55,140 bases of DNA, from positions 1 through 55,140 of the forward strand of contig SGZG01000005.1 of NCBI GenBank assembly GCA_004214185.1, written 5' to 3'. The position numbers and the translations under genes are program-made. Origin of the DNA: Flavobacteriales bacterium. GTDB lineage: Bacteria; Bacteroidota; Bacteroidia; Flavobacteriales; Flavobacteriaceae. Within the stretch, counting starts at the first letter, position 1. Every line of letters begins with the position of its first letter. This document shows positions 52,607-55,140 of this stretch, one piece after another. Under the pieces are notes generated by a model, which had not been told where the DNA came from, did no database searches, and saw only the letters and a list, made by a program, of their open reading frames with translations.

Positions 52607-53701
52607 TTAATGATCTTCCTCCGCAACAGCAAATCCAAAATACAATGCCGAAAGCATTGTGAAAATATACGCCTGTAATAGTGCTACTAATATTTCAATA
52701 ATTGAAATAAAAAACGCTAAAACAAACGATAAGCTTGAGCCAATCCAGTTCTGAAAAATAAACATTAGCCCAATTAAACTATATAATACAATATGTCCTG
52801 CTTGAATATTGGCATATAGTCTAATAAGTAATGAGAAAGGCTTTATAAAAACCCCTAAAAGCTCAATTGGAGCAAGAACAATTTTGATTAGCACAGGTAC
52901 GCCTGGCATCCAAAAAATATGTCCCCAATAACTTTTATTGGCTGTAAAATTTGTTATTAAAAAAGTTAAAAGAGCTAAAGAAAATGTAACGGCTATGTTT
53001 CCAGTAGCGTTGACACCAAGAGGCGTTAGCCCTAACATGTTTAAAAACCATATAAAAAAGAATATAGTTAGCAAAAAGCTCATGTAATTTTTATATTTTT
53101 TTTCCCCGATATTTGGAATGGCTATTTCGTCTCTGATATATAAAATAATAGGCTCAAAAAACCTTCCTACTCCCTTAGAAATTCCCTTGTTTTTAGAAAA
53201 GGACTTGGCCAAGCCTGAGAACAAGAAAAACATAATAAATGCAACTAAAATTATAGATGTAATATTCTTGGTTATTGAAAAATCTATTGGAGCAAAATTG
53301 ATAATCTTATTGTTTTTGTCATAACTAAACTCTCCTTCTTTGTTTGTTTTAAAGATCTTGCTTTTATCGTAATTTAATCTGTAAAAGTTCCCGCTACTTT
53401 CGACTACAGTTTTTCCGTGCTTTAGCTTAGAAGACATAAAAAAATGAAATCCATTATCATATAATATTACAGGGAGAGGTAATTCCAAATATACTTTTTT
53501 CCCAGTGTCTTCATCAACCCAAGAAGTTAATGAGTAGGAATGGCTGTCTTTTAAATGATGAGAAATGTATTCTTTAATTTCTGTTTTGATATCTCCCTTT
53601 GTATTTTCATTTTTTGAAATATCAGCTGAAGGAGCTCCATGAGTATCAAGCCCAAAAACAAGAGAAAATAAGACAAAAATTGCAAGTTTGATGTTTTTCA
53701 A
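52607..53701 (-). CDS. atpB: ATP synthase a subunit, Bacteroidota type
   Basis: Stator proton-channel subunit. At 364 residues it is much longer than E. coli AtpB (271) because of a signal peptide (1-22) and a periplasmic N-terminal domain (about 25-140), a Bacteroidota trait. Membrane helices follow from about residue 147; the essential arginine is R294 in LLIRLYANIQAGHIV, and the C-terminus has LLQAYIFTMLSALYF. No ATG is available: an in-frame TAA lies just upstream and the start is TTG at 53699-53701. A promoter match lies 37-66 bases upstream of it. Confidence 0.95.
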   Translation of the reverse strand: MKNIKLAIFVLFSLVFGLDTHGAPSADISKNENTKGDIKTEIKEYISHHLKDSHSYSLTSWVDEDTGKKVYLELPLPVILYDNGFHFFMSSKLKHGKTVVESSGNFYRLNYDKSKIFKTNKEGEFSYDKNNKIINFAPIDFSITKNITSIILVAFIMFFLFSGLAKSFSKNKGISKGVGRFFEPIILYIRDEIAIPNIGEKKYKNYMSFLLTIFFFIWFLNMLGLTPLGVNATGNIAVTFSLALLTFLITNFTANKSYWGHIFWMPGVPVLIKIVLAPIELLGVFIKPFSLLIRLYANIQAGHIVLYSLIGLMFIFQNWIGSSLSFVLAFFISIIEILVALLQAYIFTMLSALYFGFAVAEEDH

Positions 53702-53737: not shown

Positions 53738-53767
53738 CAAATGTAAGGTTATTAAGTAAAAAACAAA
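53738..53767 (-). promoter_or_regulatory. Promoter of the atpBEFHAG operon
   Basis: On the minus strand TTTG (53764-53767), an 18-base spacer and TACATTTG (53738-53745) together fit the Bacteroidota consensus TTTG-N(17-23)-TAnnTTTG. It is the best two-part promoter match I found in the window. Transcription would start near 53732, about 30 bases before the atpB TTG, and just downstream of the atpZ/atpI-like stop codon. Confidence 0.6.
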
Positions 53768-53797: not shown

Positions 53798-53998
53798 TTA
53801 ATTCATTTTTTTTAACTGTTTCAAAAGAATATAAAATGAAATTGCAACTCCAGCTAATGTTAAAGAAACGGTAAAGGTTTTGTCATAACTATACTTTGAG
53901 TCTAAAAATTTGCCAAAGTAAGCAGAGCAAAAAATAGTAACTCCCATTTGAGTTACAAGGCCAATAAAAACAATAAATGGATTACGCTGTTTTTTCAG
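53798..53998 (-). CDS. AtpZ/AtpI-like small membrane protein with non-ATG start
   Basis: A 66-residue protein with two membrane helices: NPFIVFIGLVTQMGVTIFC (6-24) and FTVSLTLAGVAISFYILLK (42-60). They are joined by AYFGKFLDSKYSYDK, the layout of AtpZ/AtpI proteins encoded upstream of atpB, which are thought to aid c-ring assembly or Mg2+ supply. Position, size and the helix–GK-LD–helix pattern support this. No ATG lies before helix 1. CTG at 53996-53998 (KKQRNPF follows) is the best-placed start; the only internal ATG (53945-53947) would remove the helix. It overlaps the bactofilin 3' end by 17 bases. Confidence 0.75.
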   Translation of the reverse strand: MKKQRNPFIVFIGLVTQMGVTIFCSAYFGKFLDSKYSYDKTFTVSLTLAGVAISFYILLKQLKKMN

Positions 53999-54404
53999 AT
54001 TGAATTTTTTCGTTTGAAGAAATAGCCTTCATTTTTTTTGCTCCTTTCATTGAAATACTAGCATCTACATTTGCACCCGATTCAACAGCTAGTTTTCCCG
54101 CAATTACTTCTCCTTCAATTCGTGCTGTTGATTTTAATGATAAAATTCCTGAAACATCAAGATTACCCTTCAGCGAACCAGCTACATCTGAATTTTCGCA
54201 AGATATTTTTCCGTGAACAATTCCTTCTTCTCCAATTACAACTTTTCCTGTTGTAGTGATTGTTCCTTCAACCTTTCCGTCAATTCTGAAATCAGCCTGT
54301 GAAATAATGTTTCCTACAATTCGGGTAGTTTTCTCAATTATATCTATTTTGTTTGTTTCTCTGTTACTTTGCATCTCTTTATTATTTGATAAATTAAAAG
54401 CCAT
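53982..54404 (-). CDS. Bactofilin (polymer-forming cytoskeletal protein)
   Basis: A 140-residue bactofilin. The central beta-helix domain (about 27-118) shows the repeating pattern typical of DUF583 (RIDGKVEGTITTTGKVVIGE then GIVHGKISCENSDVAGSLKG). Short unstructured charged tails flank it. Bactofilins self-assemble without nucleotide and organise envelope processes such as cell shape. It lies 9 bases after the PorW/SprE-like gene and upstream of the ATP synthase genes; the AtpZ/AtpI-like gene begins inside its last codons. Confidence 0.92.
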   Translation of the reverse strand: MAFNLSNNKEMQSNRETNKIDIIEKTTRIVGNIISQADFRIDGKVEGTITTTGKVVIGEEGIVHGKISCENSDVAGSLKGNLDVSGILSLKSTARIEGEVIAGKLAVESGANVDASISMKGAKKMKAISSNEKIQSEKTA

Positions 54405-54413
54405 AATTTTATT

Positions 54414-55140
54414 TTAATCTAAAGTCTTGTAAATCAGCATGTTTTTATACTGGGAAGACAAACTTACAAAATTATTTTTAAGTTGAAACTCTTTAATGTT
54501 TTCCTTTATTTTTAGAGCGTCTTGTGCGGCTAAACTTCTTTCTGAATAATCATGAATTACCAAAAGTTTTCTTTCATAATCATACACGTCAACTGAAACT
54601 CTATGCTGAGGATTAATAATTTGTTTAATTAAACTGACATATTCCTTAATTTGATTTTCAGAAAAATCTGAATTTGACAAAGAAAAGACAAGTTTAAAGT
54701 CCAAATAAGGCTTTAAAGATAAATCAACATCATCAAAATATTTTGCTGAGTTTAGGTCAAATTTAGGTTTGATTGAATTTAAGTCAACTGAGTATTTATT
54801 TTCCAATTCAATCAATGCGCTTAAATAGCTTTTTACGCCCTCCAAACGACCTAATGACTTTGCTTTTAAAATTTCAAATTGAATTTGAATTTCTTCTGAT
54901 TCAATAAGGTCCAATTGACTATCAATTATATTTAAAACTGTTTTAAAGTTTTGCAAATCAAAAGTTTTATTTAAACTATCTAACAATTTATTAGAAGATT
55001 CTATGTCTAGAATTAGAGCGGGATCTTTTGAAAGGATTCTTGCATATCTAGAAAGCGAATCATTCATTATTATATCTTCTTTTATTTTAAGATGTTGTGG
55101 TTCATTGTTGATTTTATATGATTTGTATAAAAGATATTTT
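54414..55140 (-). CDS. C-terminal part of a PorW/SprE-like TPR protein (5'-truncated by window edge)
   Basis: The frame stays open to the right edge of the window, so the ATG at 55065-55067 is internal: the upstream codons read KYLLYKSYKINNE and KIKEDIIMNDSLSRYARILS, a typical TPR-protein phrase. The C-terminal half has a helical segment (FEILKAKSLGRLEGVKSYL) and a compact end domain (RVSVDVYDYERKLLVIHDYS to LIYKTLD). From memory this matches the C-terminus of SprE/PorW, an outer-membrane lipoprotein of the type IX secretion and gliding machinery. That assignment is moderate: the diagnostic N-terminal lipobox and TPRs are outside the window. Confidence 0.6.
   Translation of the reverse strand, partial: KYLLYKSYKINNEPQHLKIKEDIIMNDSLSRYARILSKDPALILDIESSNKLLDSLNKTFDLQNFKTVLNIIDSQLDLIESEEIQIQFEILKAKSLGRLEGVKSYLSALIELENKYSVDLNSIKPKFDLNSAKYFDDVDLSLKPYLDFKLVFSLSNSDFSENQIKEYVSLIKQIINPQHRVSVDVYDYERKLLVIHDYSERSLAAQDALKIKENIKEFQLKNNFVSLSSQYKNMLIYKTLD

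Follow-up and report, generated by a model that had tools for sequence, protein, structure and literature searches.

In one clade of a Flavobacteriaceae genus, atpZ probably starts at a CTG codon that seems to have replaced the ATG of its relatives and would support initiation at a low level, perhaps aided by ribosomes that terminate on the overlapping bactofilin gene. The case comes from a window of 55,140 nucleotides of a marine-type flavobacterium—the whole stretch of DNA analysed—in which three genes follow one another on the minus strand: a bactofilin gene of 140 amino acids (53982–54404; PF04519, 88 bits against a cut-off of 27.9), atpZ, and, directly downstream of it, atpB encoding subunit a (52607–53701, read from a TTG; PF00119, 177.5 bits against a cut-off of 33.9). 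Read from the CTG at 53998–53996 to the TAA at 53800–53798, the atpZ frame (53798–53998) comprises 66 codons plus the stop, and it overlaps the 3′ end of the bactofilin gene, whose TAA lies at 53982–53984, by 17 bases (53982–53998). A previous sequence-only reading had described just such a frame and overlap, and the coordinates agree. It had also pointed to the absence of an ATG before helix 1, which extends to GTG and TTG: the frame is open from stop to stop for 76 codons from 54028, and none of the three codons occurs in it upstream of an ATG at 53947–53945 that lies within the first predicted helix.

Judged by its sequence, the frame is atpZ, a plain member of its family, and the protein that it encodes is ordinary. 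It scores 39.7 bits with the Pfam model PF09527 (AtpZ, ATPase_gene1; curated cut-off 26.6), covering profile positions 3–54 of 54, and the predicted pair of helices and the position beside the ATP-synthase subunit a gene are those of the family. The two helices proposed from the letters reappear at residues 7–36 and 41–65 in the best of five AlphaFold2 models, computed from a 32-sequence alignment (mean pLDDT 85.7, pTM 0.63; pLDDT across the five models from 64.7 to 85.7). The initial label, AtpZ/AtpI, can be narrowed: the AtpZ half is borne out by PF09527, by the neighbouring atpB and by AtpZ homologues found across the Flavobacteriaceae, the comparison that had been suggested, and the AtpI half finds no support, no AtpI model being found among the Pfam matches of the window frame up to E = 1. 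An NCBIfam search with the same frame returned one weak, unrelated match far under its cut-off. The genome to which the window belongs holds a single match to the AtpZ protein. The gene is present in 19 of the 22 genomes of the genus, so that neither a lack of similarity to AtpZ nor a lack of conservation of the frame, which would have spoken against the assignment, was found; the three genomes without atpZ are drafts of 51–80% completeness.

A comparison of these 19 genomes reveals ATG as the usual start state of atpZ in the rest of the genus and a clade without any standard start. A standard start inside the end of bactofilin is found as ATG at one and the same site in 11 genomes and as GTG, nearer to the gene than that site, in one (G007). 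The remaining seven—G000, which contains the window, G014, G009, G001, G004, G021, and G005—contain no standard start codon (ATG, GTG or TTG) in an open frame that leads into helix 1. They form one branch with a support of 100/100, and the tree, built from AtpZ, AtpB and a bactofilin shortened by its 15 C-terminal residues, and rooted by us among the five most distant rows, calls for one change of state. At the position aligned with the relatives' ATG (54011–54013, minus strand), hereafter the old site, five of the seven have CTG, the window has ACG, and G005 has an ATG closed off by a stop, the sequence reading ATG AAA AAA TAA and then ATT CTG; all genomes of the genus set are drafts, and the ACG and the TAA rest on one genome each.

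The CTG at 53996–53998 was singled out in the sequence-only reading as the best-placed start, and no other start-like codon ahead of helix 1 is open to the gene in all seven clade genomes. In G005, the CTG at this position is the only NTG between the in-frame stop and helix 1. A competing ATT one codon earlier occurs in G001, G021, and G005 only (AAT in the window), and the ATT or ATC codons common to all seven genomes lie solely inside helix 1. The bactofilin codon that bears the CTG is TCT, GCT or ACT, so its first base varies while the T is kept, and CTG is nonetheless present in seven of seven. By way of comparison, of the 163 fourfold codons outside the overlap (48 from bactofilin, 17 from atpZ, 98 from atpB), 17 show no variation in the third base; among the 22 whose first two bases have changed, this holds for 1. 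Conservation of the CTG at this one position in the clade lends modest support, from a single site, to its use as a start; two of the 12 genomes with a retained ATG or GTG have CTG at the same position as well, and its conservation follows partly from the EKTA ending of bactofilin. The first base of the CTG precedes the first base of the bactofilin TAA by 14 nt on the same strand.

Relative to the CTG, an A occupies position −3 in all seven genomes, and since only 46% of 167 reference starts (from the window and G014 contig 2) have an A there, this is weak support, and a strong start context was rejected; position −6 carries T or C rather than the favoured A. The CUG is unpaired in the predicted fold. 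Folding is no stronger overall than that of shuffled sequences (z-score −0.35), and the idea that the start depends on a special RNA structure was rejected as well.

Another reading holds that the start codon changed without moving, so that the old site is still used, as ACG in the window and as CTG in five sisters. This site aligns with the ATG of 11 relatives and is start-like in seven of seven genomes (CTG, ACG or ATG), and the CTG of the five sisters is one base away from ATG. With a second CTG in five of the seven, the start could also differ between genomes. However, a TAA separates the old site from the gene in G005, the ACG of the window departs from the NTG pattern, and in all seven genomes the lower CTG alone is open to the gene, which makes translation from the old site unlikely.

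A fusion of bactofilin and AtpZ by +1 slippage of ribosomes or of RNA polymerase on GAAAAAAC (53989–53996) is quite improbable. The run does fall in the region shared by the two genes, and slippage at this point would connect the two frames past all upstream stops, including that of G005. Fusion requires +1, whereas the heptamer A AAA AAC would serve −1 in another phase; moreover, the A run follows from the bactofilin codons GAA AAA AC and is found in 19 of 19 genomes, including those in which atpZ is a separate gene with ATG or GTG. A −1 frameshift was rejected outright because it leads into the wrong frame, atpZ lying in +1 relative to bactofilin.

Returning to initiation at the lower CTG, selection on the frame indicates how far upstream translation reaches. 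Over the 60 codons after the bactofilin stop, pN/pS of atpZ is 0.194 among the seven clade genomes, as against 1.53 and 1.86 for the same DNA read in the other two frames, and 0.307 in seven ATG genomes; a bactofilin value for the ATG genomes (0.716) was set aside as it stems from a crude alignment across an indel. The atpZ frame is thus under purifying selection in genomes that lack a standard start. A start at the internal ATG (Met18, 53945–53947, minus strand) would yield a 49-residue protein missing part of helix 1, and this ATG does give the sole frame of at least 30 residues with a standard start there, its methionine being nearly invariant. Yet across the seven genomes the 11 codons preceding Met18 vary at 2 first, 0 second, and 8 third positions, with a pN/pS of 0.075, and the modelled helix 1 begins at residue 7. 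Such strong purifying selection implies that translation begins upstream of the internal ATG, which was rejected as the sole start and is a very improbable one; the translation start would most likely lie inside the bactofilin overlap. That atpZ is decaying and no longer translated is scarcely plausible, for the loss of the standard start is set against the absence of internal stops in all seven clade genomes and against strong purifying selection among sequences that have diverged widely at synonymous sites. An assembly or sequencing error that erased the start is hardly credible either: the genomes are drafts and two of the states are seen once each, but the standard start is missing in seven genomes.

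To place the loss of a standard start against a broader background, 1.2 Mb of G015, a genome that keeps the ATG of atpZ, served as the reference for open frames taken from the window and from G014 contig 2. This control comprised 227 accepted frames, 225 of them not shadowed by longer ones; an unfiltered version, swamped by antisense frames, was discarded. Nine of the 225 lack ATG, GTG or TTG near the aligned N-terminus. The atpZ frames of the two genomes account for two of these. In three others, both genomes share an ATG at an aligned position further in, and in one an ATG without an exact partner lies about 17 codons into the alignment; two, of 74 and 54 codons, lie at most 125 bases from contig ends; and one is a fragment. 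A standard start is absent where the relative has ATG in three of 225 frames, namely atpZ in both genomes and the fragment, which matches its partner only from residue 340 on. The latter is a long frame on G014 contig 2 (59727–61805) that matches residues 340–1015 of a 1025-residue frame in G015 with 40.6% identity, and it may be a gene that is broken or split, or the product of faulty assembly. Hence, atpZ is the only clear case of a lost standard start in the sample of 225 frames.

A further gene of the genus, outside this sample, appears to lack a usual start. The infC locus encoding IF3 (L275; G000 contig 1, near 94903–95160) and nine other infC loci of the genus have no ATG, GTG or TTG at the beginning of the frame. 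An ATA is conserved in 10 of 10 readable genomes—17 loci were fetched, 10 of them readable with the motif used, an earlier motif having found 2—and an ATT or ATA two codons further on is an alternative candidate. This suggests that ATA is the likely start of infC and that the genus appears to use another rare start. A relaxed initiator tRNA was rejected: the 17 matches to an initiator pattern, which permitted a C30–G40 variant, occur in 16 of the 22 genus genomes and all carry the GGG/CCC arm, and ARAGORN assigned tRNA-Met to 6 of the 6 loci submitted out of these 17. IF3 was found in 17 of the 22 genomes. Among the seven clade genomes, the initiator-type GGG/CCC arm was found in four and IF3 in five.

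Beyond the genus, a search for PF09527 across the family covered 159 genomes, almost one per genus, and matched 145 of them. The survey covers 144 atpZ loci from 143 of these genomes, G000 and G016 being treated in the genus set and the extra matches G022:C13, G080:C161, and G199:C17:65073-65192 being left out; one locus with a contig-edge offset (L047) was re-read separately and has GTG. Counting any start codon that exists between the upstream stop and the domain, and nothing more, 94 loci offer an ATG, 49 only GTG or TTG, and one (G179) none. AtpZ of the window resembles other members of its family in score, helices and neighbourhood and differs in its start, probably a CTG inside bactofilin, whereas ATG, GTG or TTG is available in 143 of 144 other family loci. 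GTG or TTG is the only option at about one third of the family loci (49 of 144). Many loci, by an uncounted impression, lie near the 3′ end of the upstream frame or overlap it, and closeness to or overlap with that frame may drive changes of the atpZ start codon.

The exception, G179, belongs to a second genus, in which atpZ is present in five of six genomes. All five have a CTG at one and the same place, three codons upstream of the position of the window's CTG, where the more distant G007 has its GTG, and the four genomes other than G179 also carry a GTG upstream of it. G179 has lost this GTG; its frame opens after a TAA located five codons ahead of the CTG and reads ATA AAG AAA CAG CTG. Comparison of the two genera thus points to what appears to be a similar course taken twice, an in-frame CTG lying behind a standard start that was then lost; the second case is one draft genome, and its CTG differs in position from that of the window.

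Between atpZ and atpB, a match to the −7 element of Bacteroidetes promoters, TACATTTG (53738–53745, minus strand), is preceded by a TTG at 53764–53766. The resulting TTG-18-TACATTTG arrangement (53738–53766) is clade-specific, a TTG at 18-base spacing occurring in 7 of the 19 genomes, which are those of the clade. The consensus of the −7 element, TANNTTTG according to PMC6847099, follows atpZ at a distance of no more than 200 bases in 19 of 19 genus genomes; as background, it occurs in 333 of 2198 stretches of 200 bases in the window, and the two strands of the window together contain the spaced pair 10 times. These motifs suggest a putative promoter for atpB and the genes that follow, separate from bactofilin-atpZ. 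If it works, atpB and the genes beyond would be transcribed from their own promoter, and atpZ would depend on bactofilin transcripts and a weak start. The apparent start of atpB itself is a TTG (53699–53701, minus strand), and the TTG-AAA pair is present in all seven clade genomes; in G014, an additional in-frame ATG lies six codons further up. Upstream of bactofilin, a 217-residue frame (54414–55067, minus strand) runs on openly to the contig edge and has a match below the cut-off to the T9SS protein PorW/SprE (30.9 bits against 250).

Taken together, the following course of events can be proposed. The small accessory gene atpZ, which lies beside the F1Fo-ATP synthase genes, would probably be expressed from a message in which it follows bactofilin. 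The start probably shifted five codons downstream in the clade's ancestor, from the ATG to the CTG at 53996–53998, both sites lying inside the end of bactofilin, after which the old ATG would have decayed differently among the clade genomes. The initiator tRNA would read the CTG as methionine with low efficiency, in an unpaired stretch with an A at −3 and with no need for a Shine-Dalgarno site, Bacteroidetes being described as lacking such sites and as favouring initiation by an A at −3 and −6 (PMC6847099). In E. coli, CUG is reported to yield 0.86% of the protein output of AUG (PMC11497404), so the output of AtpZ may be very small. Initiation there is probably made more likely by ribosomes that reach the end of bactofilin 14 nt beyond the CTG. 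Termination–reinitiation of this kind is reported to be permitted by closely spaced stops and starts, as tested with other gene pairs in E. coli and Haloferax (PMC6728339). As a result, little AtpZ would be made, and its expression would be separate from that of the ATP-synthase structural genes, which appear to have a promoter of their own. Scarcity of AtpZ would fit a helper role rather than that of a stoichiometric subunit; in B. pseudofirmus OF4, atpZ is reported to support Mg2+ acquisition and atpI the stability and assembly of the synthase (PMC4453477).

Several known systems share features with this arrangement. Termination–reinitiation pairs have the same-strand overlap, and in Bacteroidetes few of them are reported to have Shine-Dalgarno sites (PMC6728339); their overlaps are of the ATGA or TGATG type, in contrast to the 17-base overlap with a CTG at atpZ, where coupling is putative. 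Like atpZ, the rare-start genes infC (IF3) and, in Staphylococcus aureus, cvfC1 (AUU) and ccpN (AUA) have a conserved rare start that probably limits expression. However, the S. aureus genes are described as having extended Shine-Dalgarno sites (PMC13009471), unlike what is described for Bacteroidetes (PMC6847099). According to PMC13009471, IF3 in E. coli controls its own synthesis by way of a rare start, and the same is considered likely in S. aureus. In the open-access literature, no paper was found that joins bactofilin with ATP synthase and atpB, and among the top matches, mostly open access, of searches on CTG/CUG or non-canonical starts, no title reports such a case for atpZ. Since rare-start genes are already known, what seems to be new is a conserved CTG start seemingly replacing ATG in a clade without Shine-Dalgarno sites. 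In its widest form, the proposal is offered tentatively, at somewhat less than even chances: that CUG replaced AUG in a conserved gene of a whole clade and became the sole start in one genome of a second genus, enabled by ribosomes terminating on bactofilin and keeping AtpZ scarce, perhaps under IF3 control as for infC.

A gene caller restricted to ATG, GTG, and TTG would shorten atpZ to 49 residues or miss it. CUG is reported to be far rarer as a bacterial start than AUG, GUG or UUG, accounting for 0.024% of bacterial start codons (PMC11497404). The steps preserved among the relatives—ATG, ATG closed by a stop, CTG, and ACG—form a natural series for studying start choice without Shine-Dalgarno sites, and they also bear on how gene overlap drives start-codon change. 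Bacteria that do without the usual ribosome-binding signal may make lasting use of a weak CTG start.
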